64,000 bases of DNA. Source: a virus. Of the stretch, positions 17,814 through 64,000 are shown piece after piece (the first letter of the stretch is position 1; each line of letters starts with the position of its first letter). The notes under the pieces were generated by a model. The model was given only the letters and a program-made list of their open reading frames with translations. It made no database searches and was not told where the DNA came from. The stretch spans positions 62,001 through 126,000 of the IMG/VR virus record IMGVR_UViG_3300022868_000009. One strand, written 5' to 3'. Both the position numbers and the translations under genes were made by a program.

Positions 17814-18917
17814 ATGAGTAAAAAATTAACTATAGAAGATATAAGAAATAAAAGTGATAATATACACAAAACAAAATATATAATAAAAGACCAATCATTT
17901 GAAAATAATAAATCTAAAATTGAAATTAAATGCGTTGAATGTGGTTATATATTTTTTCAACAAATCAACAACCACATAAATAGAGGAGATGGTTGTCCCA
18001 AATGTTATGGTAAAAATAAAAAAACAATAAATGAAATAAGAGATCTTAGTAAAAAAATTCATGGAAATATTTATGAAATACCAGAACAAAAATATATAAA
18101 CATGAAATCTAAAATACAAATTTTATGTAAAAAATGTAATACTTATTTTTCTCAATCATCTAATAATCACATTTACCAAAAACAAGGTTGTGTATTATGT
18201 AATGGTAATAATAAATTATCTTTACAAGATATTGTAAAAAAAGATACACAAAACAACAAAGAAAAATTTGAAATACCTGAACAAGAAATAAAAAACACTA
18301 GTCAAAAAATTAAAATTTATTGTAATGATTGCAAATCATATTTTTACAGAAATATAAATTCACATATAAATAGAAAATCAAAATATTGTCCTAATTGTTC
18401 TCCTGTACAGAAATTGACATTAAAAAAAATAAGAGAAAAAAGTCTACTTTTACATAAAGGAAAATATATAATACCTGATCAAACATTTGTAAACAATACT
18501 TCATTCATAAAAATATATTGCAAAAAATGTAAACAAATATATAAACAAAAAATAATGGTTCACTTAGATAATAGAATTAAAGGATGTAATAATTGTAAAT
18601 GTTCTAAAGGTGAAATTACAATATCAAACATATTAAAAAACAATAAAATAGATTTCATAACACAAAAAAGATTTAAAAATTGTAGATATAAATTACCTTT
18701 ACCGTTTGATTTTTATTTAACAGAAAAAAATTTATGCATTGAATATGATGGTGAATTACATTATATTTCAAAAGATTATTTTGGTGGTGATGAAAAACTA
18801 AAAGAAACACAAAGAAATGATAAAATAAAAACAGAATATTGCGAAAAAAATAAAATAAAATTATTAAGAATTAAATATGATGAAAATATCATCGAAAAAT
18901 TAAAAGAGATAATGTGA
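17814..18917 (+). CDS. Vsr-like homing endonuclease with zinc-ribbon repeats
   Basis: 367 residues from MSKKLTIEDIRN (an in-frame ATG at 17787 is also possible). The N-terminal part has four repeats, each with a CxxC pair separated from a second CxxC (for example CVECGYIF and CPKCYG), likely DNA-binding zinc ribbons. The C-terminus FDFYLTEKNLCIEYDGELHY plus KLLRIKYDENI is a Vsr/EDxHD-like nuclease core. Free-standing homing endonucleases of this type spread between phages by cutting target genes. It is transcribed opposite to the genes before it. The stop overlaps the next GTG start. Confidence 0.75.
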   Translation: MSKKLTIEDIRNKSDNIHKTKYIIKDQSFENNKSKIEIKCVECGYIFFQQINNHINRGDGCPKCYGKNKKTINEIRDLSKKIHGNIYEIPEQKYINMKSKIQILCKKCNTYFSQSSNNHIYQKQGCVLCNGNNKLSLQDIVKKDTQNNKEKFEIPEQEIKNTSQKIKIYCNDCKSYFYRNINSHINRKSKYCPNCSPVQKLTLKKIREKSLLLHKGKYIIPDQTFVNNTSFIKIYCKKCKQIYKQKIMVHLDNRIKGCNNCKCSKGEITISNILKNNKIDFITQKRFKNCRYKLPLPFDFYLTEKNLCIEYDGELHYISKDYFGGDEKLKETQRNDKIKTEYCEKNKIKLLRIKYDENIIEKLKEIM

Positions 18918-19600
18918 AAATACTAAAAAACTATAATTCATTTATTTTTGAACAATTAACGCCAACAAACACAGAAATGATTGAATTCACATCAAAAGAA
19001 ATTAAAGAACTATTTGTAGATACTGATATATTAGAAAGTATAATAACAAGTGAGAATAGTTTATTAAAATCAATTAATGCAGAAGAAGTTAATTTTTTCA
19101 AAACATTTAGTCTTGATGTAGATTCATTTGATAATCTAAACAGTATTGATGAATTATATGAAGATGAAGAATTCAATAAAAAATTGGTATCACTTAAATA
19201 TAAGAAAACAAATCTAGAAGAAACTGAAGAATCAGAAACATTTATAGATAAAACAGTTGATATAAAGTTTTTCTTAATACATAAAGAAGAACAATCTGAA
19301 TTAGAAAAACCAGAATATATTATTTACCAATCTAAAAAAAGAGGAGAATTTAAATGGGAAAATATCAAATGTTATAAAGTAAATGAAGACATGAGAAATT
19401 TTTACGACAAACTTACTTCTAAGACAGTTGAAATATCTAAAGGAGAGAAAAAATATATCTATAACACATCTAATGGAGGTGTTGATTGGGTATTACAAAA
19501 CGTGGATGATGAAGACAAAACCTTCAAAAGAGACATGGAAAATAATGATATAAAAGCTATTTTAGTAGATGAAGAAATATCAATTACAATAGTTGCATAA
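18914..19600 (+). CDS. Unknown acidic protein with N-terminal tag
   Basis: 228 residues from a GTG start overlapping the upstream TGA. It opens with KILKNYNSFIFE, one of the recurring tags in this window, ending in I-F-E, which fits a T4-type prohead protease site. The rest is acidic with no recognised domain. It begins a run of three tagged genes in the same direction. It may be a capsid-internal protein (inference). Confidence 0.5.
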   Translation: MKILKNYNSFIFEQLTPTNTEMIEFTSKEIKELFVDTDILESIITSENSLLKSINAEEVNFFKTFSLDVDSFDNLNSIDELYEDEEFNKKLVSLKYKKTNLEETEESETFIDKTVDIKFFLIHKEEQSELEKPEYIIYQSKKRGEFKWENIKCYKVNEDMRNFYDKLTSKTVEISKGEKKYIYNTSNGGVDWVLQNVDDEDKTFKRDMENNDIKAILVDEEISITIVA

Positions 19601-19615
19601 AAATGAAATTTAAAA

Positions 19616-19873
19616 ATGAAAATACTTAAATTTAAACAATTCGAAAGTAATACTAATTCAACAGATGATAAAGATTTCAATGAAAATATTACAGGTAATC
19701 TTGATCAAGATTTTAATTTAATCATTAATTATATAAATGATAATGATAATTATGAAAAATTTTTATCTTGTTTAACAACATATATAAAAAATCACCCAGG
19801 AATAACAACTGATAGCCGTTGGTTGGAAATTACCAATTTATGGTTTAATAAATATATTTTAAATAAAAAATAA
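19616..19873 (+). CDS. Small tagged protein, paralogue of the next gene
   Basis: 85 residues starting MKILKFKQFESNT. The first 32 bases are identical to those of the next gene (19882). The C-terminal ends are also alike: WLEITNLWFNKY here, WLKMAKRWYEKL there. So the pair arose by duplication followed by divergence of the middle. No known domain. The tag suggests packaging into the capsid (inference). Confidence 0.6.
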   Translation: MKILKFKQFESNTNSTDDKDFNENITGNLDQDFNLIINYINDNDNYEKFLSCLTTYIKNHPGITTDSRWLEITNLWFNKYILNKK

Positions 19874-19881
19874 AACAAATT

Positions 19882-20280
19882 ATGAAAATACTTAAATTTA
19901 AACAATTCGAAAGCGAGACTTTCTATAATACTGACTCAACAGAATATGATACACAAGAAGAATACAAAGATGAAAAGAAAGTCCCAAATTATGATGATTA
20001 TATAAATAATAAAATAACTGAAAAAGATTTTCCTAATATTGACTCTACAGTAAAAGATATGCACCTTAACGATAAAATTACACTAAATGATTTATCAATA
20101 TTAGATAATTATATTAATAACACAAAAGATTATCTTGAAACAAATTTTGTTCTTTTTAGATTATATATTGAACATGATGAATTAACTATGGATTCAACTT
20201 TAAAAGAAACATGGCTAAAAATGGCTAAAAGATGGTACGAAAAATTAGATAAAAAATATTTTGGTATAAATTATCAATAA
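19882..20280 (+). CDS. Small tagged protein, paralogue of the previous gene
   Basis: 132 residues starting MKILKFKQFESET. It has a longer acidic middle than its neighbour at 19616 and a similar helical C-terminus. No catalytic motif or membrane segment is visible. The spacing of 8 bases from the upstream stop suggests cotranscription. Confidence 0.6.
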   Translation: MKILKFKQFESETFYNTDSTEYDTQEEYKDEKKVPNYDDYINNKITEKDFPNIDSTVKDMHLNDKITLNDLSILDNYINNTKDYLETNFVLFRLYIEHDELTMDSTLKETWLKMAKRWYEKLDKKYFGINYQ

Positions 20281-20284
20281 CCAT

Positions 20285-20635: not shown

Positions 20636-20636
20636 A

Positions 20637-21089: not shown

Positions 21090-21142
21090 ATGAATTTATG
21101 AATTTAAATTTTAAATATATAGTTTTAAATCTTATCATAAAT

Positions 21143-21856
21143 ATGATCAAAAGTTTTAAAAATTATCTTCTTATAAAAGAGTCAAGTCAATATTCAAAAA
21201 TGATTGATTTCACTCTTGTAAAACTTGAATACAAAAAAGAAGAAATAATTAATACTTGTCTAGAAGCTATTGAAACAAAGCCATATTGTATTTGTATACT
21301 ACCAAAATACATAGATTTAGTTAAAAATTTAGTTGATGGTAAAGGAATTAAAATTGCAACTGTAATTGATTTTCCAGAAGGAAATGGAACATATACAGAA
21401 AAAATACGTCAAACAAAACAAGCAATTGATAAAGGGGTTGATGAATTAGAAATGGTAATTGATTATAATAAGATTCAAAAACTAGAAAACTTACCAGAAG
21501 AACAATATGATAAACTTTATGAAACAATAAAGAAACCTGTTAAAGAATTTGGTAATTTATGTATAAAAAATAATATAACTTCAAAAATTATAATTGAAAC
21601 AGGCATATTAACATTAGATCAAATTAAAATTGCTTTAAACATATTAATTGATTGTGATATTGATTATGTTATGACTTCAACTGGATTTGCTGAAACTGGG
21701 GCGGAAGAAAAAAAGGTTAAATTTATAAATGATATAATACCTCATAATTCTAAACTTAAAATTAAAGTGTCAGGTGGGATAAGAGAATCCAATGATATTA
21801 AAAAGTTCTACTCTAAAGGTGCAAGAAGATTTGGCACATCAGCTATAATTGGATAA
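21143..21856 (+). CDS. DeoC-like aldolase fold protein lacking the Schiff-base lysine
   Basis: 237 residues from MIKSFKNYLLIKESSQ; the longer frame back to 21023 would overlap smpB. MIDFTLVKLE, VIDFPEGNG, DELEMVIDY and KVSGGIR follow the deoxyribose-phosphate aldolase pattern. However, the active-site stretch reads YVMTSTGF where DeoC has FIKTSTGK, so the Schiff-base lysine (Lys167 in E. coli) is Met177. The second lysine is kept (Lys208). Normal aldolase activity is unlikely. The N-terminal tag ends I-K-E. A complete DeoC lies at 43929. Confidence 0.8.
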   Translation: MIKSFKNYLLIKESSQYSKMIDFTLVKLEYKKEEIINTCLEAIETKPYCICILPKYIDLVKNLVDGKGIKIATVIDFPEGNGTYTEKIRQTKQAIDKGVDELEMVIDYNKIQKLENLPEEQYDKLYETIKKPVKEFGNLCIKNNITSKIIIETGILTLDQIKIALNILIDCDIDYVMTSTGFAETGAEEKKVKFINDIIPHNSKLKIKVSGGIRESNDIKKFYSKGARRFGTSAIIG

Positions 21857-22019
21857 AATCCATATTTTAATATAAATATATAAAGAAAAGTATGATAATA
21901 TTGTGTTGGATGGAATAGTAGTATAGTCCCTATTACTTAGAATTTTGTCACATATAACATTCATACGATTTTGTTGGATTTTTACCAAAAAATATAGTAA
22001 AATCACAAGATTTCACAAC

Positions 22020-22050: not shown

Positions 22051-22061
22051 TTTCAAATATT

Positions 22062-29968: not shown

Positions 29969-30550
29969 TTAACTATCATATACTTGTTGTGTATGTGAAT
30001 TCTTTGCACTATAAATATATTCGTGGTCATAAGTTGGATTTACTCCAAACCTTTTAAATGTTATATAAATATCTTCTAAACACTCCATATCAGCACCACC
30101 TACTAATGTAACATTTTTTCCAATTAATCTTCTTATTAATAATACAAGTTCATTATTAACAAAAAACCATTTATGATTATGTTTATCATTATAAATTATA
30201 TATGTATCTGTATCACCAATTTTAAATAATTTACCTGGTCCAAAATCTTTTTGTTGTTTAACAGTCTCTACGTGCTTTAAAAGTTCATCATCAAACCATT
30301 TATGTCCAAATCTTTTTGGAATATTTTCACTGTTTCCATTTTTATTTTTAAACGTATAAAGTGGTTTTAAAGGAACTTTATTAGTGTCATATATCTGATA
30401 AACTTGATTAAATTCTTTTGCATAATCTTGCAACTTTGATACAAATCCCTGTGGAATATGTTTTGAAAATTCCTGTTGAACATCAACAATCACTAAAATA
30501 TCATTATTTATAATTTGTGATTCTATTAAGTTACTAAACTTCTTTATCAT
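29969..30550 (-). CDS. Isochorismatase-like hydrolase with N-terminal tag
   Basis: 193 residues. ILVIVDVQQEF is the first strand and catalytic Asp of isochorismatase-like cysteine hydrolases. VTLVGGADMECLEDIYITF carries the nucleophile Cys at the end of its strand. Residues 1-11 (MIKKFSNLIES) fit the recurring tag with L-I-E. The family includes nicotinamidase, which would fit the NAD genes at 56-59 kb, but specificity cannot be read. The middle Lys of the triad is not certain. Confidence 0.6.
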   Translation of the reverse strand: MIKKFSNLIESQIINNDILVIVDVQQEFSKHIPQGFVSKLQDYAKEFNQVYQIYDTNKVPLKPLYTFKNKNGNSENIPKRFGHKWFDDELLKHVETVKQQKDFGPGKLFKIGDTDTYIIYNDKHNHKWFFVNNELVLLIRRLIGKNVTLVGGADMECLEDIYITFKRFGVNPTYDHEYIYSAKNSHTQQVYDS

Positions 30551-30880: not shown

Positions 30881-31117
30881 ATGAAAAAACAAAAAACATT
30901 TACAATTGATATGGATATTTGGGAAAAATTTAATGAAATAAGCAAACAAAAATCTATCAATAAATCTTTATTAATAGAAAATCATTTAAGAGATATCATT
31001 TATTTAAACGAAAACCCAAAACATTTTATTATCGTTGGAGATGAAATAAAATTATTAAAATATTCATTAAATGAAAATGAAATTTATATATTAGACGCAA
31101 AACCAAATATAAAATAA
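30881..31117 (+). CDS. Small protein with ribbon-helix-helix-like N-terminus
   Basis: 78 residues from the ATG at 30881 (MKKQKTFTIDMDIWEKFNEI). The pattern beta strand TFTIDMDIWEKFNEISKQ, then helix SINKSLLIENHLRDII, fits a ribbon-helix-helix DNA-binding domain of CopG type. The last 30 residues are unassigned. It overlaps the ATG of the following endonuclease by 1 base. It could repress its own operon or the endonuclease (inference). Confidence 0.5.
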   Translation: MKKQKTFTIDMDIWEKFNEISKQKSINKSLLIENHLRDIIYLNENPKHFIIVGDEIKLLKYSLNENEIYILDAKPNIK

Positions 31118-32694
31118 TGATATTAACCAAATCAGTCAAAGTTAAAGTGCATTCATCTATGGTAAAATACTATCAGAGTAAAGGATATGAATGCAAATAT
31201 AAAGATATAATTGATATTAAAGTAAAAGATCTAAAACAAAAAAGTACAGTAATTGTCGAAGTTGAATGTGATATATGTGGTGAAAAGAAAAATATACCAT
31301 TGTTTAGATATAACAACAATTTTAATAATAAAAATATGTATGTTTGTTCAGCTTCTTGCGCACAAACAAAAATAAAATTAACTAAATTAGAAAATCATGG
31401 AGATGAAAATTTTTCAAATATTAAAAAACGAAAAGAAACATGCAAAGAAAGATACAACAACGAAAATTATAAGAATATTGAAAAAAAGAAAGAGACAAAT
31501 ATAGAAAGATATGGAGTTGAACACGTGATAATGAATGAAAATATAAAAAATAAAAGACTAGAAACATATAAAAAATTATATGGTGAAGAGCACCCAATGA
31601 AAAATAATGATATAATTCTAAAGAAAAAACAAACATCTAAAAATAAACATGGTGATAAAAATTATAACAACATACAAAAAACACTCAAAACAATTAAAAA
31701 TAAACAACTTCAAAATATTGAAAAATATAATATTAAAGCTATCAATTATCAAGATTTTCTTTTTGAAGTTGAATGTGATAAAGGACACAATTATAAAATA
31801 TCATTCGATTTATTATACAAAAGACATAAATATAATGTAGAAAAATGTACAATATGTAATCCTATTGGAATCAAATATTCAAATAGTGAGTATAATTTAT
31901 TACAATTCATTAAAGAAAATTATAATGGTGAAATAATAAAAAATTCAAGAAAAATAATAAAACCGTATGAATTAGACATATTTTTACCAAATTTAAATTT
32001 AGCATTTGAATATAATGGATTATGGTGGCACAATGAATTATATAAAGATAAAAATTATCACAAAACTAAAAGTGATTTATGTGATAAAAATAATATACAA
32101 TTAATACATATATGGGAAGATAACTGGATTTATAAACAAGATATAGTTAAATCTATGATATTAAATAAATTAGGTAAAACACTAAATAAAATATATGCAA
32201 GAAAATGTGAAATTAGAGAAATTAAAAATAATGATTTAATAAAACAATTTTTAAACAATAATCATATACAAGGTTTTGTTGGTTCGAGTGTAAAATTGGG
32301 TTTATATTACAATAATGAATTAACTTCTTTAATGACTTTTAAAAAAGATAATAATAATTTTGAATTAAACAGATTTTGTAATAAGTTAAATACTAATGTT
32401 ATTGGTGGTGCATCTAAATTATTTAAATACTTTACTAAAAATTATAACTTTTATGAAATAAAAACATTTGCAGATAGAACTTATTCAAATGGAAACTTAT
32501 ATTTTAAGATGAATTTTAAAATAGGTAAATTTATAAAACCAGATTATTATTATATTGTTAATGGTATTAGAAAACATAAATTTAATTTTAGAAAACAAAA
32601 AGATAACATAAAAACAGAACATGAAATTATGTTAGAAAAAAATATTTATAGAATATATGACGCAGGTAAATATAGATTTACCTACTCATTATAA
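31117..32694 (+). CDS. Large phage homing endonuclease, paralogue 1
   Basis: 525 residues. Residues about 45-85 have a zinc finger (CDICGEKK ... CSASC). Next come degenerate KERY/IERYGVEH repeats, a second CTICNP finger, and a nuclease core ELDIFLPNLNLAFEYNGLWW plus HIWEDNW (EDxHD-like). The C-terminal module has QGFVGSSVKLGLYY, NRFCNKLNTNVIGGASKLF and ADRTYSNGNLY. Two close paralogues lie at 33580 and 38168. It runs opposite to, and flanks, a putative virion gene. Confidence 0.75.
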   Translation: MILTKSVKVKVHSSMVKYYQSKGYECKYKDIIDIKVKDLKQKSTVIVEVECDICGEKKNIPLFRYNNNFNNKNMYVCSASCAQTKIKLTKLENHGDENFSNIKKRKETCKERYNNENYKNIEKKKETNIERYGVEHVIMNENIKNKRLETYKKLYGEEHPMKNNDIILKKKQTSKNKHGDKNYNNIQKTLKTIKNKQLQNIEKYNIKAINYQDFLFEVECDKGHNYKISFDLLYKRHKYNVEKCTICNPIGIKYSNSEYNLLQFIKENYNGEIIKNSRKIIKPYELDIFLPNLNLAFEYNGLWWHNELYKDKNYHKTKSDLCDKNNIQLIHIWEDNWIYKQDIVKSMILNKLGKTLNKIYARKCEIREIKNNDLIKQFLNNNHIQGFVGSSVKLGLYYNNELTSLMTFKKDNNNFELNRFCNKLNTNVIGGASKLFKYFTKNYNFYEIKTFADRTYSNGNLYFKMNFKIGKFIKPDYYYIVNGIRKHKFNFRKQKDNIKTEHEIMLEKNIYRIYDAGKYRFTYSL

Positions 32695-33579: not shown

Positions 33580-35226
33580 ATGTTATTAACAAAGAATATT
33601 AAAATTAAAATAAATAATAGGTATATAAAATATTATCAAAATCTTGGATATCAGGTAAAAGGCGGTCAAGAATGTGAAATAAAAATAGAAGATTTATCAA
33701 AAAAAAGCCACGCTTTTGTTGATGTTAAATGTGATATATGTCAAGAAGAAAAAACAATTAAATATTATAATTATACTGAAAATATACTAAATCAGGGTTT
33801 TTACACTTGTAAAAAATGTAAACATCATAAGACAAAAATCACAAATCTAGAGAAATATGGTGTAGAATGTACATTACAATCTGATGATGTTTTAGAAAAG
33901 ATAAAAAATAAAAACATAGAAAAATTTGGCACAGACCATTATTCAAAAACAAATGAATTTAAAGAAAAAATAAAAGAGACAAATCTAGAAAAATATGGTG
34001 TTGAAAGTAATATGCAATCAATCGAATTTAAGGAAAAATCTATATTATTTAATCTGAAAAGTTACGGTGTTGATCATTATTCAAAGACTAATGAATTTAA
34101 AGAAAAAGTAAAAAAAACAAATTTAGAAAAATATGGTGTTGATCATTATTCAAAAACTGATGAATTCAAGGAGAAGTTGTCTAAAAACCATTTTTTAAAA
34201 CTTAAAAAAGAAAACAACAATCTTAAAGAGATAAATGGTGATGAATATGTGATATATTGTGATAAATGTGATAAAGATTATACTATTCATAAATGGTTAT
34301 ATAAAAATAGAAAAAAGAAATATAAAACTAATACTTGTTTATATTGTAATCCTATAAATTCTTCTAAATCTGGAATGGAATTAAAATTATTAGAATTTAT
34401 AAAAGATAATTATAATGAAAAAATTGTTTATGGTAATAGAAAAATTATACCACCTAAAGAATTAGATATTTATTTACCAAATTTAAAATTGGCATTTGAG
34501 TTTAATGGTGTATATTGGCACAACGAATTAAACAAACATAACAAATATCATTTAGAAAAAACAGAAAAATGTCTAGAAAAAGGAATACAATTAATTCATG
34601 TTTTTGAAGATGATTGGATTTATAAACAAGATATAGTAAAATCTAGAATTTTGAATTTAATTGGAAAATCTAAAAAAATATTTGCTCGAAAATGTGAAAT
34701 TAAATTAGTCAATGATAATAAAGTTATTAGAAATTTTCTAGATGAAAATCATTTACAAGGGTTTGTAGGGAGCAAAATAAAATTGGGTTTGTATTATAAT
34801 GATGAATTAGTAAGTTTAATGACTTTTGGAAATTTGAGAAAACCTTTAAATCAGTCAAAAAAGGATGGGTCATTTGAATTATTAAGATTTTGTAATAAAT
34901 TGAGCATTTATGTTATTGGTGGTGCTTCAAAATTATTTAATTATTTCTTAAAAAACTATGAAATTTGTGAAATAATAAGTTATGCGGATAGAAGTTGGAG
35001 TAATGGAAATTTATATGAAAAACTTGGTTTTGAATTTATACATAAAACACAACCTAACTATTATTATATAATAGGCAATCTTAGAAAACATAGATTTAAT
35101 TTCAGGAAAGATAAATTAATTAAAGAAGGTTTTGATTCAAATAAAACCGAACATGAAATAATGTTAGAAAGGGAAATATATCGAATATATGATAGCGGTA
35201 GTTTAAAATATAGTTATTTAATATAA
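33580..35226 (+). CDS. Large phage homing endonuclease, paralogue 2
   Basis: 548 residues. Zinc finger CDICQEEK ... CKKCK, then five units of a 25-residue repeat centred on NLEKYGV with DHYSKTNEFKEK, then CLYCNP. The nuclease core is ELDIYLPNLKLAFEFNGVYW with HVFEDDW. The C-terminal module (LQGFVGSKIKLGLYY, FCNKLSIYVIGGASKLF, YADRSWSNGNLYEKLGF) is shared with its paralogues. It overlaps the convergent LRR gene by 9 bases. Confidence 0.78.
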   Translation: MLLTKNIKIKINNRYIKYYQNLGYQVKGGQECEIKIEDLSKKSHAFVDVKCDICQEEKTIKYYNYTENILNQGFYTCKKCKHHKTKITNLEKYGVECTLQSDDVLEKIKNKNIEKFGTDHYSKTNEFKEKIKETNLEKYGVESNMQSIEFKEKSILFNLKSYGVDHYSKTNEFKEKVKKTNLEKYGVDHYSKTDEFKEKLSKNHFLKLKKENNNLKEINGDEYVIYCDKCDKDYTIHKWLYKNRKKKYKTNTCLYCNPINSSKSGMELKLLEFIKDNYNEKIVYGNRKIIPPKELDIYLPNLKLAFEFNGVYWHNELNKHNKYHLEKTEKCLEKGIQLIHVFEDDWIYKQDIVKSRILNLIGKSKKIFARKCEIKLVNDNKVIRNFLDENHLQGFVGSKIKLGLYYNDELVSLMTFGNLRKPLNQSKKDGSFELLRFCNKLSIYVIGGASKLFNYFLKNYEICEIISYADRSWSNGNLYEKLGFEFIHKTQPNYYYIIGNLRKHRFNFRKDKLIKEGFDSNKTEHEIMLEREIYRIYDSGSLKYSYLI

Positions 35227-35817
35227 TCCCATTTTTTTTGCATTGTGAAGGTCTGGATTTTCTTTCCAAAACCATTCCCAATATTTTTCTAAATTATCAT
35301 AAGGTAATTGGTTATTTTCACAAAAAAACTCTTTTAATCCTTTTGGTAATTCAGGTAATTCAGTTAATTGGTTATTATAACAATTTAATACTTCTAACCC
35401 TTTTGGTAATTCAGGTAATTCAGTTAATTTGTTATTACCACAATATAAATATTTTAATCCTTTAGGTAATTCAGGTAATTTAGTTAATTGGTTATTATAA
35501 CAATATAAATATTTTAACCCTTTTGGTAATTTAGGTAATTCAGTTAATTGGTTATTATAACAATATAAATATTCTAACCCTTTTGGTAATTCAGGCAATT
35601 CAGTTAATTGGTTATAACGACAAAATAAATATTTTAATCCTTTTGGTAATTCAGGCAATTCAGTTAATTGGTTATAACAACAAAATAATTTTTCTAATCC
35701 TTCTGGTAATTCAGGTAATTCTGTTAAATTTAATCTAGCTAAATCTAATGTTTTGCCATCATCACTTAAATGGTCTTTAATTAATTGGTTTTCTGAATAT
35801 GTTTTTAAATATCTCAT
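35218..35817 (-). CDS. Leucine-rich repeat protein with N-terminal tag
   Basis: About 199 residues from MRYLKTYSENQ (the adjacent upstream ATG gives one more residue). Seven tandem 20-residue units of the form LTELPELPKGLKYLYCYNNQ follow, a bacterial LRR like those of YopM/IpaH effectors, without a ligase domain. The coding units appear as 60-base DNA repeats with few changes, so the array expanded recently. The C-terminus ends KKMGLY, a motif shared with other tagged proteins. It probably binds a protein partner. Confidence 0.75.
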   Translation of the reverse strand: MRYLKTYSENQLIKDHLSDDGKTLDLARLNLTELPELPEGLEKLFCCYNQLTELPELPKGLKYLFCRYNQLTELPELPKGLEYLYCYNNQLTELPKLPKGLKYLYCYNNQLTKLPELPKGLKYLYCGNNKLTELPELPKGLEVLNCYNNQLTELPELPKGLKEFFCENNQLPYDNLEKYWEWFWKENPDLHNAKKMGLY

Positions 35818-35913: not shown

Positions 35914-36276
35914 TCAATCTTTATTTTTCTCCCAAACATACCTACTTTTCTTAGAATCATTTAAACCACTGAATTGTATTTCATCCCCAATTACTTCTAC
36001 ATCAAAAGTAACTAAATTAGTTTCTTTTTTTCTCTCTACAAATTTTTGCAATTCTTCATATTCAATCCCACTTTCTTCTAAGAATTTATCTATTTTTGTT
36101 TTTATTCTTGTAACTTTTGGGTCATCTTTATAATTTCTTAACCAAGTCATCATTTTATCTATTAAACCACCAAATTCACCAGAACCTTTTCTATATTCTC
36201 CAAATCTTTGAATTTCAGGTTCTTTTTCATCCAACATTTCTTCTGTTAAAAAATTTTTAAATTTTTTTAATTCCAT
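35914..36276 (-). CDS. Tagged protein of unknown function
   Basis: 120 residues beginning MELKKFKNFLTEEM, with an L-T-E site fitting a T4-type prohead protease. The rest is charged, with GEFGGLIDKMMTWLRNYKDD. No family recognised. It overlaps the next gene by 10 bases and belongs to a three-gene minus-strand run of putative virion proteins. Confidence 0.55.
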   Translation of the reverse strand: MELKKFKNFLTEEMLDEKEPEIQRFGEYRKGSGEFGGLIDKMMTWLRNYKDDPKVTRIKTKIDKFLEESGIEYEELQKFVERKKETNLVTFDVEVIGDEIQFSGLNDSKKSRYVWEKNKD

Positions 36277-38167: not shown

Positions 38168-39979
38168 TTAATTCTTAAAAATGTATTTATAATTACCACT
38201 ATTATATATTCTATAAATACCTCTTTCTATCATTATTTGATGTTCACTTTTATCTAAATCAAAACCTTCTTTAACCAACACGTCTTTTCTATATCCAAAC
38301 CTATATTTTCTCACACCATCTACTACATAATAATAATTTGGTTTAGAAATATGAGATAATTCAAAACCTAAATTTTCATATAATTTGCCATTTGAATGTG
38401 ATCTATCTGCATAACTTATTATTTTTTTAAAAAAATAATTTTTAGTAAAATGTTTAAACAATTTTGAAGCACCACCAATAACATTAGTATTTAACTTATT
38501 ACAAAATCTTATAAGTTCAAATTCACCTTCTACACTAGAAGAATTTTGAGACTTTCTTTTTTTACCAAAAGTCATTAAAGAAACTAACTCATTTTCATAA
38601 TAAAGACCTAGTTTAATACTAGAACCAACAAAACCTTGTAAATGATTATCATCTAGAAATTTTCTTATCAATTTATTATCTTCAATAACTTTAATTTCAC
38701 ATTTTCTTGCATAAATTCTATTTGGTGTTTTACCTATTTTGTTTAATATTATGGATTTAACTATGTCTTGTTTATACAACCAATCATCTTCCCAAATATG
38801 TGTTAGCTGAACACCTTTTTTAAAACAATTATCTGTTTTATTTAAATGATAATTATTATCTTTATTTAATTCGTTATGCCAATACAAACCATTAAATTCA
38901 AAAGCTAATTTCAAATTTGGTAAATAAATATCTAATTCTAATGGTTTAATAACATCTCTATCTGATGTTTCAATGACACCAGTATAATTTTCTTCAATAA
39001 AACTTAATAATTGTATTTCTAATCCTGATGTGTGTTGATTAATTGGGTTGCAAATAGTACACAATTCAGTTTTACATTTAACTCTATTTGAAAACAAGGA
39101 TGAATTAATAATATAATCATGTCCTTTATCACATAATATTGTATATTCTTTATTATCAAAATCAATATTCAAAAAATTTAAATAACTATAATTACTTAAA
39201 AGATATTTTTTAGTTCTTTTTCTATTATTCTCTTTAATATTTTTTATAACTTTTTCTGTTTGAAAATAATTTTCAACACCATATCTTTCTAAGATTGTAG
39301 TTTTTCTTTTTTCTTTTAATTCATTAGAATATGATGGATTTTCAACACCATAATTTTCCATTAATGATTTTATTGATTTCTCTCTAATTTCTTCTGATTG
39401 TTGAGGATACTCTACACCATACTTTTCTAAATTTGTTTTTTTAATTTTATCTTTTATTTCTTCTGATTCAAACGGATTTTCAACACCATATTTTTCTAGA
39501 TTTGTTTTGGATATTTTATCACGTATCTCTTTATTAGATAGAGAAAATTCAACACCATACTTTTCTAGATTTGTTTGTTTTTGCTTTCTTTTTACACACT
39601 CATTTTGAGTAAAATGTTCGACACCATATTTTTCCAAACTTGTTTTTTTAACTCTATCAACATATTCCTCAGTCTGTGTATAATATTCACTGCCATATTT
39701 TTCAAATGTTGTCTTTTTAACTTTTTCTTGAGCACACTTAGAACTACAAGCATAAAACCCACCATTATTAATATTTTTAACATATTTTTGATACATTAAA
39801 TCCTTTTCATTATTACAAAAATCACATTTTACTTTTATTTTTACATGACTACCATCAGATAAATATTTAGGATGTATATTTAAAATATCTCCCAATTGTA
39901 CATCTTTCGAATATTCTTCTTTTAGTTTACTTAAATTTCTTTTTGTTACTTTAATTAATGTTTTTTCTGTTAAAATCAT
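38168..39979 (-). CDS. Large phage homing endonuclease, paralogue 3
   Basis: 603 residues, the longest of the three. Zinc finger CDFCNNEK ... CSSKC, then seven or eight copies of the NLEKYGVE repeat, CTICNP, and the core ELDIYLPNLKLAFEFNGLYW with HIWEDDW. The C-terminal LQGFVGSSIKLGLYY and YADRSHSNGKLYENLGF module is shared with the others. It follows putative virion genes and is divergent from the amidoligase-like gene. The number of repeats varies between paralogues, which suggests slippage or recombination. Confidence 0.78.
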   Translation of the reverse strand: MILTEKTLIKVTKRNLSKLKEEYSKDVQLGDILNIHPKYLSDGSHVKIKVKCDFCNNEKDLMYQKYVKNINNGGFYACSSKCAQEKVKKTTFEKYGSEYYTQTEEYVDRVKKTSLEKYGVEHFTQNECVKRKQKQTNLEKYGVEFSLSNKEIRDKISKTNLEKYGVENPFESEEIKDKIKKTNLEKYGVEYPQQSEEIREKSIKSLMENYGVENPSYSNELKEKRKTTILERYGVENYFQTEKVIKNIKENNRKRTKKYLLSNYSYLNFLNIDFDNKEYTILCDKGHDYIINSSLFSNRVKCKTELCTICNPINQHTSGLEIQLLSFIEENYTGVIETSDRDVIKPLELDIYLPNLKLAFEFNGLYWHNELNKDNNYHLNKTDNCFKKGVQLTHIWEDDWLYKQDIVKSIILNKIGKTPNRIYARKCEIKVIEDNKLIRKFLDDNHLQGFVGSSIKLGLYYENELVSLMTFGKKRKSQNSSSVEGEFELIRFCNKLNTNVIGGASKLFKHFTKNYFFKKIISYADRSHSNGKLYENLGFELSHISKPNYYYVVDGVRKYRFGYRKDVLVKEGFDLDKSEHQIMIERGIYRIYNSGNYKYIFKN

Positions 39980-41539: not shown

Positions 41540-41923
41540 ATGAAACATTTGAAAACATTTGAAGGGTTTTTTTCTGAGACTAAAAATAAGTTTAAAGAAC
41601 AATTGCAAGATTATAAAACATTATATACAAGTTTCTTTGAAAAGAAACATATGGAATTAACTAGACAACTTTATATAAAAACAAACCAATTACTTATTAA
41701 CAAACCATATTCTATTAATATGAAAATAGACAATAAAGATTATGTGTTACATGTTCATTTAGGTGATGTTTATATATCTACCGGAGATGAAATTAAACGG
41801 GAAGATAATCTTGAAATTCGAATGCCTAGTATAAAGAATAATAAACTATTAAAGAAAGTATTAAATTATCTAGATAATCTTAACCAAGATTTTATTGAAG
41901 GAAAGAAATTAGGCTTATTATAA
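41540..41923 (+). CDS. Tagged small protein
   Basis: 127 residues from MKHLKTFEGFFSETK. The upstream in-frame methionine at 41522 overlaps the previous stop, but the tag start is preferred. A short alpha/beta domain follows (YVLHVHLGDVYISTGD). It ends GKKLGLL, the C-terminal motif also seen at 54103, 44748 and 35218. No known family. Confidence 0.6.
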   Translation: MKHLKTFEGFFSETKNKFKEQLQDYKTLYTSFFEKKHMELTRQLYIKTNQLLINKPYSINMKIDNKDYVLHVHLGDVYISTGDEIKREDNLEIRMPSIKNNKLLKKVLNYLDNLNQDFIEGKKLGLL

Positions 41924-43928: not shown

Positions 43929-44732
43929 TTAATAACCTTCTCCAGTTGTTTCTAAACCATTTAATGTATCAACTGATTGCCATCCCATTCCAAATCTATC
44001 AACATACTGACCAAACGTTGTTATATCATTCATATCTCTTACTCCACCAGATGCTTTAATCTTCATATTTTTAGATAGTAAGTTGGGATTATCTTGAATA
44101 ACATCATGCATAATTTTAACTTTATTAATCTCTGCACCAACTGGCACTTTACCAGTGGATGTTTTAATAAAGTCTGCGCCAGCTTCTAAACAAGCCAAAG
44201 TTGCAACTATTGTTTGTTTTTCAGTCAATAAACCTGATTCAACAATAACTTTAAGTGTAATTGGTTCCCCATCTTTATTATCATTTTCATGACAAATATC
44301 AACCAATGATTCAATTTCTTCAACTAATATGTCAAATTTTTCCATTGGTAAATCACCATCATTATCAGTATCTACCCACTCTTTTTTAAGAAATTTATAA
44401 TTTATAACCATATCAACTTCATCAGCACCATCTTTAATTGTCTCTTTTGTTTCTGATTCTTTGTGTTCTAATGTATAAACTCCTTCTGGAAAAGAAATTA
44501 CAGTACATACTAAAACATCTGAATCAGCTAAAATTTCAGCTGCAATAGAAACATGTTTTGGCATAACACAAACAGATTTAACACCAAAATCTTGTGCTTT
44601 TTCACATAATTCAATAATATCTTCATCAGAAGCATCATTATCAAGTAATGTATAATCTATCATCGGATTATATTTATCCATGTTATTAACATTTTCATTA
44701 ATTGAGTTGATAAATTTTTTGTAGTTTTTCAT
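43929..44732 (-). CDS. deoC: Deoxyribose-phosphate aldolase with N-terminal tag
   Basis: 267 residues. MKNYKKFINSINE is the tag (I-N-E site). The aldolase follows: MIDYTLLDNDAS, VISFPEGVYT, DGADEVDMVINY, then the active site DFIKTSTGK with the Schiff-base lysine, and KASGGVRDM with the second lysine. It cleaves 2-deoxyribose-5-phosphate to glyceraldehyde-3-phosphate and acetaldehyde. Compare the Lys-less paralogue at 21143. It lies between the two deoxyribosyltransferase-like genes. Confidence 0.88.
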   Translation of the reverse strand: MKNYKKFINSINENVNNMDKYNPMIDYTLLDNDASDEDIIELCEKAQDFGVKSVCVMPKHVSIAAEILADSDVLVCTVISFPEGVYTLEHKESETKETIKDGADEVDMVINYKFLKKEWVDTDNDGDLPMEKFDILVEEIESLVDICHENDNKDGEPITLKVIVESGLLTEKQTIVATLACLEAGADFIKTSTGKVPVGAEINKVKIMHDVIQDNPNLLSKNMKIKASGGVRDMNDITTFGQYVDRFGMGWQSVDTLNGLETTGEGY

Positions 44733-44747: not shown

Positions 44748-45191
44748 TTATATTAATCCTATACTTTTTGCATTTTTGTTTGCATCTTCACCAAGTTCTT
44801 TATGCATTTCTATATCTTTAAGAAGATCATCATTTGATTTTGGTATTCTACTTTTTTTAACTTGATCAACACATATATTATATATCTTTTTAACTTTCTG
44901 TCTTGACACATTTAAATCTCTATTATTATATTTAAAAGATACGTCCCATGTTCTATTTTGCCATCTTTCATAATGCATAACAACTCTCATACCAAAGACA
45001 TTAAAATAATAAGTTCCATATCCTACAATTTCTTCTTCAGTATACGGTTCTTTATAATTAAAATCACAATGATCTATTTTAAAAGTACCACCGTTAAATT
45101 GTTTTTTAATTTCTTGATATATTTCATCAAGTATAACATCATCATTTACTAGTGGTTTACCAAAACCTTCATATGTCTTTAAATATCTCAT
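44748..45191 (-). CDS. Tagged protein of unknown function
   Basis: 147 residues from MRYLKTYEGFGKP. The body (YGTYYFNVFGMRVVMHYERW) is alpha/beta. It ends NAKSIGLI, similar to the C-termini of three other tagged proteins. The ATG overlaps the upstream stop by 4 bases. No family recognised. Confidence 0.55.
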   Translation of the reverse strand: MRYLKTYEGFGKPLVNDDVILDEIYQEIKKQFNGGTFKIDHCDFNYKEPYTEEEIVGYGTYYFNVFGMRVVMHYERWQNRTWDVSFKYNNRDLNVSRQKVKKIYNICVDQVKKSRIPKSNDDLLKDIEMHKELGEDANKNAKSIGLI

Positions 45192-45440: not shown

Positions 45441-46358
45441 TTATTGATTTTGTTTCTTTATTGCATCCAACAATATTCTTAAATTTTCATCACCAACAAC
45501 CAATTTTGTGATAGAACCCATTAACCATGGAGATATATCTTGTACTCTTTTTTCTCCTTGATTAAATTCTTCAGATTGAATCCACATAAATGTATTTATT
45601 TGTCTCATTGGTGTCATTTGCAATTCACCTTGTGTTCCTGAACCAGCAACATTATCAAATTTAACTAAATTAGTATCACAAATATTTAATACTCTTAAAT
45701 CATATGCAACAACTTTTCTATTAAAAAAATCACCAAGTTTTTGAAAATCTTCTGATATAGTCATATCATCCATTTGACCTGTTTTCCACATTGTATAAAG
45801 TCTTTGATATTCTTCATCATCTCGAATAACTTCATTTCTTAAAGGATTTAAAATTAGAGGATTTTTATAATCAGATTCATTCAACTTACCAGTAATACTC
45901 AAATTAATTAAATCAGGACTGTAAATAATATGAGGATTTTCACCATTAACATCATAATGTCCTTCTGACGTTCCACCAAAATATTTTTCTACATATGATC
46001 TCCAATCATCTTTTCCAACAGGAGCTTTATCAATACCACCACCTAAATATAGTTTAGTAACTGGTTTAAAACAATCACTCAAATCTGATATATCTATCAT
46101 ATTAAGAACTTTTAATTTCTTTGTTAATTCTCTTTCATTTCTATTAATTAACCATTTCCATGCTCTTCTAGATAAATAATCATTAAATTGATTCCATAAT
46201 CCAGAAAATAGAGATTCATTAACAGATTCATCAACTGATTGTAATATTATATTTTTAAGTTCTTTGATTTTATTTATAGGTAATCCTGCACTTAGAATAT
46301 CATACATATATATCTCACCCTGATTAGATTCATTAATAAATTCACCATATTTTTTCAT
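45441..46358 (-). CDS. Nucleoside deoxyribosyltransferase-like protein with tag, copy 2
   Basis: 305 residues, paralogue of the 42975 gene. Tag MKKYGEFINES (I-N-E). KLYLGGGIDKAP, NPLILNPLRNEVI (reading KNPLILNPLRNE), NICDTNLVKFD and GSGTQGELQMTP correspond one by one to copy 1. The catalytic Glu candidate is the E in GTQGEL. The ending ISPWLMGSITKLV is shared. Family level is inferred from these motifs only. Confidence 0.55.
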   Translation of the reverse strand: MKKYGEFINESNQGEIYMYDILSAGLPINKIKELKNIILQSVDESVNESLFSGLWNQFNDYLSRRAWKWLINRNERELTKKLKVLNMIDISDLSDCFKPVTKLYLGGGIDKAPVGKDDWRSYVEKYFGGTSEGHYDVNGENPHIIYSPDLINLSITGKLNESDYKNPLILNPLRNEVIRDDEEYQRLYTMWKTGQMDDMTISEDFQKLGDFFNRKVVAYDLRVLNICDTNLVKFDNVAGSGTQGELQMTPMRQINTFMWIQSEEFNQGEKRVQDISPWLMGSITKLVVGDENLRILLDAIKKQNQ

Positions 46359-46415: not shown

Positions 46416-46961
46416 ATGATAACTAATTTTAAAAATTTCATAATTGAAAATAATTTACCAAAAGGTACATGGGTTAAAGCCACTGAAGATGAACTTGACG
46501 AATATAATGATGAAATTCTAGATATGATTAATAAAACATACAATTACTTAGGAGGATATCCAGGAATTGATACACCAGATGATATTAACTTCAATAAAGC
46601 AGATGAATGGGAAATTATAGATTTAACTGGTGATGATGAACCAGATGCGGTCTCAGCTGATAAAATAAAACTACATGGTAAAAAATATACACTCGGAGCC
46701 AATGATGGTGAAAAACAATCAAAGATAGAATATATACAAATGATGATTGATAGGTTACATAAACCTGGCAATTATGTAGAATGTTCATATAAACTAGCCA
46801 ATTTCTTAATAAAAAATAATGCACCTATTGTAACAGACAAAAAAAATATAGAAAAAATATTAAGCAAAGAAGTAAAAATGGTGAATAATGGTTGGTATGA
46901 AAGAGAAATAAATGGAAAACGTAAACTTAATATATTATTAGGTAAACCTCTTGTAAAATAA
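46416..46961 (+). CDS. Tagged protein, possibly acetyltransferase-like
   Basis: 181 residues from MITNFKNFIIENNLPKGTW, tag ending I-I-E. ADEWEIIDLTGDDEPDAVSA and the later LANFLIKNNAPIVTD are reminiscent of GNAT-like folds of large phages, but the acetyl-CoA loop is not clear. It is divergent from the 45441 operon (57 bases between starts), so this gap should hold promoters for both. Confidence 0.45.
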   Translation: MITNFKNFIIENNLPKGTWVKATEDELDEYNDEILDMINKTYNYLGGYPGIDTPDDINFNKADEWEIIDLTGDDEPDAVSADKIKLHGKKYTLGANDGEKQSKIEYIQMMIDRLHKPGNYVECSYKLANFLIKNNAPIVTDKKNIEKILSKEVKMVNNGWYEREINGKRKLNILLGKPLVK

Positions 46962-47031: not shown

Positions 47032-47559
47032 ATGGATTATTTGAAAACATATACAGAAAAACAAGAAGACAAACCAACCTATAAAATATATGTAGATTTA
47101 GATGGTGTGTTATGTGATTTTAATGGAAGATTTAAGAAAGATATAGATCAAATAGGACCAGAAAAATACATAAAAAAATATGGAGTAACTAAAATGTGGC
47201 AAGAAATCGAAAAACGTGGTATAGAACATTGGAGTAACATGGATTGGATGTCTGATGGTAAAAAATTATGGAAATTTATTACAGAAAATTTTAACGATAT
47301 AGAAATATTAACTGGTTCACCTTGGGGTAAAGCTGGTCAATATGCTCACAAAGGTAAAGATATTTGGTGTAAAAGAGAACTAGGTAATATTAAAGTCAAT
47401 CATAAATCAAGTAAACAAAAATATAAATTTGCTTCTGAAAATCACATATTAATTGATGATATGAAAAGAAATACTGATATGTGGAAAGATGCTGATGGTA
47501 TTGCAATAAATCATAAATCTACCAATAAAACAATTAAAATATTAAAAAAATATATTTAA
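47032..47559 (+). CDS. 5'(3')-deoxyribonucleotidase-like HAD protein with tag
   Basis: 175 residues from MDYLKTYTEKQED. A HAD core follows: IYVDLDGVLCDFN (nucleophile Asp), EILTGSPWG and ILIDDMKRNTDMW, matching the 5' nucleotidase C-type family of phages. It would dephosphorylate deoxynucleoside monophosphates. The longer frame starting at 46963 precedes the promoter-like motif and is rejected. It ends 3 bases from the convergent primase stop. Confidence 0.78.
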   Translation: MDYLKTYTEKQEDKPTYKIYVDLDGVLCDFNGRFKKDIDQIGPEKYIKKYGVTKMWQEIEKRGIEHWSNMDWMSDGKKLWKFITENFNDIEILTGSPWGKAGQYAHKGKDIWCKRELGNIKVNHKSSKQKYKFASENHILIDDMKRNTDMWKDADGIAINHKSTNKTIKILKKYI

Positions 47560-54102: not shown

Positions 54103-54468
54103 TTATAGTAATCCTAATTTATTTGATTGTAGATATTCATCTATTGTAACTCCAATATTTTTTATATACCAATCTTCTATTGTAATTGGTTTATAAAATG
54201 CATTATTATTTACATTAACATCAAAATCCAATATTCCAGAATTTGTCTTATATATATATAAAGATACAATTTCACATTTACTTTCTACTTGATCTCCCCA
54301 AGCACAAGAAACTTCATCTTCTATAATTTCGGTTAATTGTTCATATATTGGTAATTCATAATATTTTTCTATTTGTTTAATGGTAACTTCTAAATTATCA
54401 TTATTCTTAATATCAGTTATTGTAATATTAAAATGTTTATTTTCTAAATATGTCTTTAGGTATTTCAC
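54103..54468 (-). CDS. Tagged protein with C-terminal GL motif
   Basis: 121 residues from MKYLKTYLENKHFNITI. The body (IIEDEVSCAWGDQVESKCEI) is alpha/beta. It ends QSNKLGLL, matching GKKLGLL at 41540. No family. First of the three tagged genes. Confidence 0.6.
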   Translation of the reverse strand: MKYLKTYLENKHFNITITDIKNNDNLEVTIKQIEKYYELPIYEQLTEIIEDEVSCAWGDQVESKCEIVSLYIYKTNSGILDFDVNVNNNAFYKPITIEDWYIKNIGVTIDEYLQSNKLGLL

Positions 54469-61317: not shown

Positions 61318-61424
61318 ATTTATTTCTATTTTGTTTTTTAGAAATCTTTAACATATATATTAAAATTTTAAATCTTATTATAGACTTCTTATAAAAAATA
61401 TATAATAGAAAATAATTATTAAAC

Positions 61425-62400: not shown

Positions 62401-62506
62401 AATCTTATATATCTATTGTATAGTGTCCTCCTAAACCAGTGAAGTATTGTATAATCAACACTTTTTCAATTTTTATTATTAATATATAAAAAGAAAACAT
62501 AAAATT

Positions 62507-63739
62507 ATGAAACAACAAAAAAATGTAAAAGGTATAATGTCATCAAACAGCTTGACTAATTATCCATACTATAGAATAGATGGTGGGTCAATGAGTGGTG
62601 AAACATATCTTTTAACATATACACACGCAACAGGTTCTACAATAGGTAGTACTGCTATTGTATCTTATCCAACAGGGGTAACTTCAAGTGCAACTGTAGT
62701 AAATGATGGTGATACTGCAACAGTTACTACTGATACTTACTTATTAGTGAAATTAGTGCCTGGTCAAACAGCTACGATCAACGGATATGTAGTTGCAAAT
62801 ATTGGTGGTGACTTCTATTTTAATGGAACAAAATATGATATCGGAGACACATTTGATTATGATGGATTAACATTCACATTCATTGGATTTGGTAGCTTCT
62901 TATTAGGAGTTGTTGATACAGATTCTTCAGCAGTAACTAGCTTTACAATGGTACCTTCATCAGCTGCAACACATACAGTAGGTGACTCTATAACATTAGT
63001 AATGTATGACCAAAATAGTGTTGATATAACAGGATTAATTGCACTTTCAGGTGATACAACAACATCAACTTATACTGATTCTTGGACACCAACAACAGGT
63101 GAACTAGTATTATCCAATGTAACTGGTAATACTGTATCTATTTATTTCTATTATATAACAGATGCTACTATCAATGATAAATACGTGATCAATTTTATTG
63201 ATCCTGTAGTATCAAGTATGACACTTGTACCAACAAGTGGATCTTATGAATCAGGTACAACTGAAACACTAGTATTTACAAATCAATCTGGTATTGATAT
63301 AACTACAAATGTTTCTCTATCAAGTGATACATATTCTTCTGCATATGTAACTGACTTCTCAGCTTCAACAGGAGCTATTTATTTCGGAGACAAGTTCGGT
63401 ATTGATGTACCATTAACATTCTATTACAATGGTGATGATTCATTAACTAGCACATTCACAGCAGGTATATCTGGATTAACAAGTATTACAGTTACTCCGA
63501 CTGGTGGAACTTCACATGTAACTGGAACAACGACAGTATTAGCATTCACCGACCAAAACGGTAACGCAGTAGATTCATTAGATATTACTTTATCTGGTGA
63601 TACATCAGCATATGGTGTTTACGTACCTTCAACTAGTACAATTAGATACGATAAAGAAGGTGTGATGATAGACTTTGTATTCTACCACAACTCTGATGAT
63701 ACAATAACTAGTACATACACAGTAGATATCTTTTTTTAA
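62507..63739 (+). CDS. Ig-repeat virion protein (decoration or fibre type)
   Basis: 410 residues, rich in Ser/Thr/Val and poor in charge. After a unique N-terminal domain come three Ig-like units starting SFTMVPSSAATHTVGDSITL, SMTLVPTSGSYESGTTETLV and SITVTPTGGTSHVTGTTTVL, each ending in a YYxxDxxTxxxYxxxF strand. This is the style of bacterial Ig-like folds in capsid decoration (Hoc-like) or tail proteins. Codon use is richer in G/C than its neighbours, as expected for high expression. It has its own strong terminator. Confidence 0.6.
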   Translation: MKQQKNVKGIMSSNSLTNYPYYRIDGGSMSGETYLLTYTHATGSTIGSTAIVSYPTGVTSSATVVNDGDTATVTTDTYLLVKLVPGQTATINGYVVANIGGDFYFNGTKYDIGDTFDYDGLTFTFIGFGSFLLGVVDTDSSAVTSFTMVPSSAATHTVGDSITLVMYDQNSVDITGLIALSGDTTTSTYTDSWTPTTGELVLSNVTGNTVSIYFYYITDATINDKYVINFIDPVVSSMTLVPTSGSYESGTTETLVFTNQSGIDITTNVSLSSDTYSSAYVTDFSASTGAIYFGDKFGIDVPLTFYYNGDDSLTSTFTAGISGLTSITVTPTGGTSHVTGTTTVLAFTDQNGNAVDSLDITLSGDTSAYGVYVPSTSTIRYDKEGVMIDFVFYHNSDDTITSTYTVDIFF

Positions 63740-63797
63740 TACGGCTTCGCCTCCCTCAGTTATAACTAACAGTTAATCACATTCTTTAATATTTTAG

Positions 63798-63827
63798 AAA
63801 ATCCCATCAATTTGATGGGATTTTTTA
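63798..63827 (+). terminator. Intrinsic terminator
   Basis: AAATCCCATCAA and TTGATGGGATTT form a long perfect hairpin followed by TTTTTT, about 60 bases after the Ig-repeat gene. The intervening bases (63740-63797) hold no gene. Confidence 0.85.
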
Positions 63828-63839
63828 ATATATACAATT

Positions 63840-64000
63840 ATGATAACAAAATTTAAAATATACGAAAAAGTGAATTTAAAAGATATTGAAGTCAAAATCA
63901 CGAATATTAATCAAAAACTAATAGATATTCTCATATCAGATTTATCATTAGTTGTGAAGAAAAAAAAGAAAAAATCAATTAGACCAGAATCTATTACAGG
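63840..64000 (+). CDS. Partial tagged protein
   Basis: The first 53 codons are visible: MITKFKIYEKVNLKDIEVKI, then a basic run VVKKKKKKSIRPES. The N-terminus resembles MITNFKNFIIE at 46416 and other tags here. It runs off the window and nothing more can be said of its family. Confidence 0.5.
   Translation, partial: MITKFKIYEKVNLKDIEVKITNINQKLIDILISDLSLVVKKKKKKSIRPESIT

Follow-up and report, generated by a model that had tools for sequence, protein, structure and literature searches.

Candidate capsid-targeting tags on many, mostly unrelated proteins of a huge phage

The internal proteins IPI, IPII and IPIII of bacteriophage T4 are different proteins that carry the same kind of short N-terminal capsid-targeting sequence (CTS), K-x-[FY]-x-x-F-[IL]-x-E, in a phage with a gp21-type protease and a gp23-type capsid protein. 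Residues 4 and 7 of the T4 tag are reported to serve targeting and residues 8 and 10 to allow processing (PMC9026906), and the T4 internal proteins are described as injected (PMC9391042). Many proteins packaged in the heads of SPN3US and phiKZ lose an N-terminal propeptide to the prohead protease (PMC5694885). Here we analyse short N-terminal tags reminiscent of the T4 CTS in the virus record IMGVR_UViG_3300022868_000009 (344,634 bases), starting from a window of 64,000 nucleotides that spans bases 62,001 to 126,000 of that record (G+C 25%). An original prediction, made from the letters of the window, had proposed that 22 of its proteins share a tag that directs them into the prohead.

The T4 features listed above all have likely counterparts here, but there are differences. 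The candidate cargoes number in the tens, including DeoC enzymes and a leucine-rich repeat (LRR) protein, as opposed to a few in T4. A second flavour of tag, MKYLKTY-x-E, is present, and the flavour varies with the phage. Finally, the scaffold is fused to the protease and, unlike T4 gp22, contains CTS-like repeats in tandem. As for SPN3US and phiKZ, their propeptides are far longer than the T4 CTS (several exceed 100 residues; that of gp45 has 20; PMC5694885), in contrast with the one short tag shared here. The Tenacibaculum phage PTm1 has a protein annotated as 'prohead core scaffolding protein and protease' adjoining its capsid protein, as in our record, but this fusion has no Y-S-E-Y-I-A-E repeats and none of the 17 genes in the 20 kb examined is tagged. 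We infer that our record belongs to the Mahaphage clade, which includes the Lak phages (PMC7162821). The portions of that article available to us do not describe such a tag set, and a literature search of titles and abstracts returned no description of a genome-wide tag set of this kind.

A tag shared by mostly unrelated proteins

We distinguished two classes of tag, class A of the MKYLKTY type and class B of the form K-x-[FY]-x-x-[FL]-[IL]-x-E, for which strict patterns were drawn up after viewing the 22 starts. Each of the 22 starts named in the original prediction does begin a reading frame whose N-terminus resembles the tag (Table 1). The strict patterns fit 13 of them, eight in class A and five in class B, and looser variants are found at the other nine (19616, 19882, 30550, 42935, 44732, 46416, 52003, 52768 and 63840), the weakest being 63840, whose frame leaves the end of the window and contains a lysine run. 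The nine [LI]-x-E ends that had been pointed out are also correct (IFE at 18914, IKE at 21143, LIE at 30550, LTE at 36276, LNE at 42935 and 43913, INE at 44732 and 46358, IIE at 46416).

The window and the initial 20 kb of the record together make up a sample of 84 kb chosen blind to the tags. Of its 105 predicted N-termini, 14 match the tag, whereas 2 of its 352 internal methionines do (p 4e-8). A class-A IUPAC DNA pattern (start-[KIM]-x-[LIMF]-K-x-[FY]) returned 52 matches genome-wide, not all of which are gene starts, as opposed to 5 for the same pattern reversed, which served as the control; 41 of these 52 matches map elsewhere than in the window and are out of sample. The tag is real and spread over the whole record, beyond the set first noticed in the window. 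An artefact of AT-rich coding is ruled out by the two controls (reversed pattern, internal methionines), as well as by the flat counts in phages G, K, immuto and HTVC008M given below. A single paralogous family is ruled out as well. With the first 16 and last 10 residues masked, blastp groups the 44 distinct tagged entries (47 minus three alternative starts in frames already counted; a few class-B ones may be chance matches, and the stretches were in part picked for tags) into 40 clusters, which agrees with the claim that the tagged proteins are mostly unrelated. A long block of genes at window positions 180-17722, mostly on the minus strand, contains no strict tag, which indicates that genes of this genome do not carry the tag as a rule.

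Similar tags are found in relatives. In 80 relative contigs, several of them near copies, 87 of 1,377 N-termini match, as opposed to 34 of 6,575 internal methionines, and 50 contigs have at least one tagged N-terminus. In five stretches of other phages, the tagged N-termini amount to 1/34, 2/33, 0/26, 0/30 and 0/17. The class-A DNA pattern outnumbers its reversed form in LR745206 (85 vs 9), LR756502 (90 vs 11), LR756500 (42 vs 8) and Lak-B5 (20 vs 4), as well as in T4 (12 vs 2) and Atu_ph07 (14 vs 5), shows a small excess in PTm1 (7 vs 1), and shows none in phages G (12 vs 18), K (2 vs 3), immuto (2 vs 2) and HTVC008M (2 vs 2). A search for relatives of three tagged proteins in viral_contigs returned a single near-identical genome. 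The record IMGVR_UViG_3300023257_000007 (348,222 bases), in which three tagged proteins are 100% identical, perhaps represents nearly the same phage, assembled a second time.

In agreement with the original prediction, the T4 record gives MKTYQEFIAE as the N-terminus of both ipII and ipIII. DNA patterns in the T4 register were used in two forms, MK (exact register) and MxK (shifted by one residue). T4 itself yields three MK matches (ipII, ipIII and 61.1) and no MxK match, our record 4 and 1, and the 735-kb LR756501 7 and 13, with controls of 0 and 0 in all three. One of the four exact-register sites of our record lies in the window, at 46358, and reads as a gene. Tags other than those at exact-register sites are shifted or partial. 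HTVC008M has one MK match and no MxK match (controls 0 and 1), and immuto none. At the level of sequence, some tags of this record and of LR756501 conform to the T4-type CTS register. T4 gp61.1 (NC_000866, 18966-19130, minus strand), annotated as hypothetical, begins with MKTFKEFIKE in this register and is a candidate T4 internal protein.

Among 37 class-A tags, K at position 5, L/I at 4 and Y/F at 7 are kept, most of which the pattern itself demands. The synonymous codon choice in these tags is near that of the genome (AAG 17% vs 12%, TAC 18% vs 10%, non-TTA leucine 25% vs 36%, ACA 77% vs 55%), which argues that selection acts on the protein. The tag is also separable from the cargo domain in the DeoC protein at 43929. 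Among its 22 matching records, LR756501, whose protein begins with MVKNFDKFVREA, and its duplicate align from residue 1, whereas 18 of the other 20 align from residue 22-26, one from residue 11 and one from residue 3. The DeoC domains begin at residue 31-32, and the PHROG match of the nucleotidase at residue 13, about 12 residues being left ahead of it. The nucleotidase leader is absent from two of five relatives (Atu_ph07 and RAS14, which start near the domain), and the relatives in HTVC008M, immuto and Melnitz have different leaders. One and the same protein carries four tags in four phages, MIKKFSNLIES here, MKVIKFSDYLKES in LR756501, MKYIRTYES in LR745206 and MKYIKTYEN in LR756502. In LR756500, 13 tags have the majority reading M-K-Y-I-K-E-Y-x-[ED]-F-[ILV]-x-E, with E at position 13 in eight of them.

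Protease, scaffold and capsid protein

The capsid protein of the record is gp23-like (PF07068, 4.7e-25), and the adjoining gene codes for an 811-residue fusion of a prohead protease with a scaffold. The original prediction had called for a prohead protease elsewhere in the genome, and a gp21-type enzyme is probably what this fusion contains, as judged from its homologues. Its match to PF03420 (Peptidase S77) has an E value of 5.7e-6 and 23.5 bits, under the cut-off of 27. Among its homologues, Pfam S77 is matched by 27/27 and S80 by 26/27 (E 0.001), and one homologue with 22.6 bits for S77 (cut-off 27) passes the cut-off for S80 (29.1 vs 23.4). The protease and the scaffold were modelled for a homologue (L018, 60% identical). 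The closest structure to the AlphaFold2 model of the protease, which is of middling confidence (mean predicted local distance difference test score 58), is T4 gp21 (5jbl; Z 13.2, root-mean-square deviation 3.0, 140 aligned residues), followed by herpesvirus proteases with Z of at most 5.5, and Foldseek concurs (5jbl, E 2.9e-5). The closest relatives of the capsid protein and of the fusion are found in records of 634 to 735 kb.

The scaffold part contains 11 copies of [FY]-x-x-Y-[ILV]-A-E, spaced by exactly 14 residues. A similar pattern occurs mostly 7-14 times per fusion elsewhere, and a set of 85 fusions, some of them near copies, totals 1,011 copies with the consensus Y-S-E-Y-I-A-E-N-L-D-K-N-I-A. 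The repeat region of a homologue is predicted, from one sequence, to form a single helix of 209 residues. The T4 tag MKTYQEFIAE and the scaffold repeat have Y-x-E-[FY]-I-A-E in common. As the 14-residue repeats of this predicted long helix share the tag pattern, the tag plausibly mimics a scaffold repeat, and the 11 copies suggest that the cargo may join the core as an extra one.

A candidate cutting site is present in the same proteins. Of 66 distinct capsid-protein rows, 64 (all but those of LR756500 and Lak-B5) have [MLI]-N-E-N, and an invariant N-E-S closes the protease domain (27/27). In the window, NE[NSAGK] is found within the first 24 residues of 7 of 17 tagged genes, a set that leaves out five of the 22 tagged starts, not called at their start, as opposed to 2 of 69 other genes (p 1e-4). 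For LR745206, sites were picked on residues 1-7 and compared with background 10-mers from our record. NE occurs within residues 7-16 in 20 of 36 tags vs 4.9% of the background, and [LIVMFY]-x-E in 31 of 36 vs 22%, the latter count being raised by the choice of F/Y at residue 7. Given how the T4 tag is processed (PMC9026906), the protease would cut at the Glu of the tag and of the capsid site.

Side observations were made around these genes. In one locus (L005), similar-looking frames, as judged by eye, lie on either side of the capsid and protease-scaffold genes (1788-3440 and 8010-9752). In L073, L074 and like loci, a recurrent tagged protein is encoded downstream of the capsid gene (e.g. L074, 16022-16525); it starts with MKLKKYKKLFEE and has an acidic tail with PF, reminiscent of the tails of bacterial single-stranded DNA-binding proteins.

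Packaging signal or something else

With a probability of roughly three in four, we consider the tags to be T4-like capsid-targeting propeptides on cargo of the head. Each tagged protein would be made with an N-terminal peptide of 10-20 residues, whose hydrophobic anchors (L4 and Y7 in MKYLKTY; Y-x-x-F in K-x-Y-x-x-F-I-x-E) would dock it on the prohead core. The core would consist of the 811-residue fusion, one repeat of which the tag would imitate. At maturation, the protease would cut behind a Glu, that of [LIMFY]-N-E or [IL]-x-E, in the scaffold repeats, at the end of its own domain, in the capsid protein and in some tags, perhaps not all. The freed proteins would remain in the head and go in with the DNA, as the T4 internal proteins do. 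Docking, cutting, packaging and injection are thus proposed by analogy with T4. The MKYLKTY class, which keeps hydrophobic residues at positions 4 and 7, perhaps represents the targeting half of the T4 signal. The gp21-type protease, the CTS-like repeats of the scaffold, the N-E-N site of the capsid protein and the T4-register tags of relatives all favour capsid targeting. In contrast, most class-A tags (MKYLKTY-x-E) lack [LI]-x-E, the other half of the T4 signal, so that the single mechanism envisaged at first for all 22 proteins is not established.

Other observations fit this explanation less well. NE is found at residues 8-15 in only 13 of 37 class-A tags, 24 being without it. LR756501, whose capsid protein is 64% identical to ours, has no excess of the MKYLKTY pattern (17 vs 16), and only 1 of 34 genes of its 31-kb head region matches the tag. 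The T4-register pattern is scant in LR745206 (MK 2 vs 2, MxK 4 vs 0) and LR756502 (2 vs 1 and 3 vs 0), LR756500 and Lak-B5 have two MK matches each (vs 0) and no MxK match, and PTm1 has neither form. LR756500, whose tags are the most T4-like, has only one or two matches to the repeat pattern, which indicates that tag and scaffold do not simply co-vary, and a search of T4 gp22 found no such repeat. With the second DeoC protein (21143), alignments begin at residue 11-41 in the 15 listed records and at residue 13 in LR756501, and tagged and untagged forms are thus not separated there. Lastly, AATATAT is found upstream of 11 of 22 tagged genes vs 17 of 66 others, which does not clearly mark the tagged genes as late.

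A second motif bears on these questions. About 60 small proteins end with E-[AGS]-x-K-[LM]-G-L-L before the stop codon, and the coupling of this C-terminal motif with the N-terminal tag suggests a shared destination. In stretches of the record that were partly picked for the motif, 65 frames end with [KRQSNE]-[LMIN]-G-[LIV]-[LMIYFV]; position -7 is a small residue in 60 of them, position -5 is K in 51 and position -8 is E in 35. The DNA pattern matches 61 times genome-wide vs 5 times for the control, and 42 of the 61 matches lie past 300 kb (a region at 300-343 kb, outside the window). In the 84-kb tag-blind sample, the motif is found in 7 of 11 class-A genes and in none of 100 others (p 1e-8). 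A single paralogous family in this phage is ruled out, as 61 proteins of at least 55 residues form 46 clusters. That the motif is a clade trait is unsupported, as none of nine other phage records has a clear excess (Lak-B5 10 vs 4, phage G 10 vs 6, the other seven at or under the control). An analogous end, N-A-D-D-F-G-[FLM], occurs 11 times in LR756500 vs 0 for the control; 7 of these 11 proteins are mutually related (LRR-like by eye), and the rest are unrelated or too short. If capsid targeting is right, this motif would act as a second address, for which we came across no description.

It is conceivable, but on balance doubtful, that two signals coexist, class B being a true cleavable CTS and MKYLKTY-x-E, often with a C-terminal KLGLL, an uncleaved address to the head or to another assembly site. 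The general lack of [LI]-x-E in class A and the concentration of the C-terminal motif in class-A genes would fit, as would its absence from all five class-B-only proteins of the window. However, intermediates link the two classes (MKHLKQYESFLNEK, MKHLKTFEGFFSE), the class-A start of LR756500 leads into a T4-like core (MKYIKEYEEFIxE), and the same protein has a class-A start in LR745206 and LR756502 but a class-B-like one here and in LR756501. We also envisage, tentatively and with the odds rather against it, a packaging code with two ends. Up to about a hundred proteins would be addressed by an N-terminal tag that mimics the scaffold repeat, by the C-terminal tail E-[AGS]-x-K-[LM]-G-L-L or by both, and each huge phage would have a dialect of its own, the drift of which is suggested by MKYIKEYEEFIxE together with N-A-D-D-F-G-F in LR756500.

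In some large phages, proteins are sorted into a compartment, and many of the tagged proteins are enzymes or have no known role, none being a proven head protein. The tag might then address them to another phage-made compartment or to a membrane instead of the capsid, which we deem unlikely in view of the match to the T4 CTS register, the gp21-type protease and the scaffold repeats of the same pattern; moreover, the four control phages G, K, immuto and HTVC008M have no class-A excess, with 14 vs 5 in Atu_ph07. Least probable of all is that the shared N-terminus is a by-product, either an expression-friendly leader or a start spread by recombination, with no role for the peptide. Starts rich in lysine may favour translation where the genome is AT-rich, and the tagged genes are often side by side, but synonymous positions are about as variable as elsewhere in the genome while the residues are kept, the same protein keeps a tag in phages between which it is about 30-41% identical, and most predicted genes of the 84 kb have no tag. 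Capsid targeting is the explanation that we consider best.

Tagged proteins of the window and their significance

As for the functions assigned in the original prediction, Pfam bears out two DeoC domains and the LRR protein. The nucleotidase label is backed by PHROG 2643 (Pfam NT5C, 1.8e-4, is under the cut-off). No support was obtained for an isochorismatase-like protein, for which Pfam at E 0.05 and the Protein Data Bank at E 0.1 returned nothing and the only PHROG matched is of unknown function; two of its three relatives had no Pfam match at E 1, and the third had two weak unrelated ones. Nor was the deoxyribosyltransferase-like label (42935) upheld, the protein having a weak match to Pfam DUF7277 (E 0.011) and none to PHROGs. 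PHROG 2667, 'internal head protein', was matched by one of ten tagged proteins (46416), marginally (E 0.008, residues 4-68). The window also contains three homing-endonuclease-like genes (31117-32694, 33580-35226 and 38168-39979).

Table 1. Tagged proteins and C-terminal motif ends in the window (window coordinates)
Feature	Positions	Strand	Remarks
Tagged protein, 228 aa	18914..19600	+	N-terminus VKILKNYNSFIFE, GTG start; complete K-x-Y-x-x-F-I-x-E core
Tagged protein, 85 aa	19616..19873	+	MKILKFKQFES, looser variant
Tagged protein, 132 aa	19882..20280	+	MKILKFKQFES, looser variant
Tagged DeoC-family aldolase, 237 aa	21143..21856	+	MIKSFKNYLLIKES; Pfam DeoC 6.9e-8 from residue 32
Tagged protein, 193 aa	29969..30550	-	MIKKFSNLIES; isochorismatase label unconfirmed; relatives in three huge phages with own tag flavour
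Tagged LRR protein	35218..35817	-	MRYLKTYSEN; C-end AKKMGLY
Tagged protein, 120 aa	35914..36276	-	MELKKFKNFLTEE
Tagged protein	41540..41923	+	MKHLKTFEGFFSE; C-end GKKLGLL
Tagged protein, 127 aa	41938..42321	+	MKHLKTYENFFDSE
Tagged protein, 182 aa	42387..42935	-	MIKIKRYSELNEK; deoxyribosyltransferase label unconfirmed
Tagged protein, 312 aa	42975..43913	-	MKIKRFDNFYQLNES; same cluster as 45441-46358
Tagged DeoC-family aldolase, 267 aa	43929..44732	-	MKNYKKFINSINEN; Pfam DeoC 1.8e-16 from residue 31
Tagged protein	44748..45191	-	MRYLKTYEGF; C-end AKSIGLI
Tagged protein, 305 aa	45441..46358	-	MKKYGEFINES, exact T4 register; LR756501 relative begins MKNFTRFINEN
Tagged protein, 181 aa	46416..46961	+	MITNFKNFIIENN; marginal PHROG 2667 match
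Tagged 5'-nucleotidase-like protein	47032..47559	+	MDYLKTYTEKQ; PHROG 2643 4.9e-21 from residue 13
Tagged protein, 248 aa	52003..52749	+	MKKYTQFSKSLE, looser variant
Tagged protein, 82 aa	52768..53016	+	MKIKRYNESL, looser variant
Tagged protein, 60 aa	53649..53831	-	MKHLKTFKEAS
Tagged protein, 82 aa	53833..54081	-	MRHLKTFNESL
Tagged protein	54103..54468	-	VKYLKTYLEN, GTG start; C-end SNKLGLL
Weak tag candidate	63840..64000	+	MITKFKIYEK; leaves window
C-terminal motif end	35218..35240
C-terminal motif end	41903..41923
C-terminal motif end	44748..44770
C-terminal motif end	54103..54125

What is new with respect to the T4 system is the much larger number of candidate cargoes, the dialects, a scaffold whose repeats follow the tag pattern and a possible second address. 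If capsid targeting is the role of the tags, it would become testable what the T4 CTS binds. Searching for one motif would then yield candidate injected proteins for uncultured huge phages, otherwise inaccessible, and roles in early takeover and counter-defence would be predicted for proteins that are now hypothetical. Should the two-ended code hold, the head would serve to deliver a large and exchangeable set of effectors. By analogy with T4, this virus may carry a far larger set of injected proteins than T4 does.

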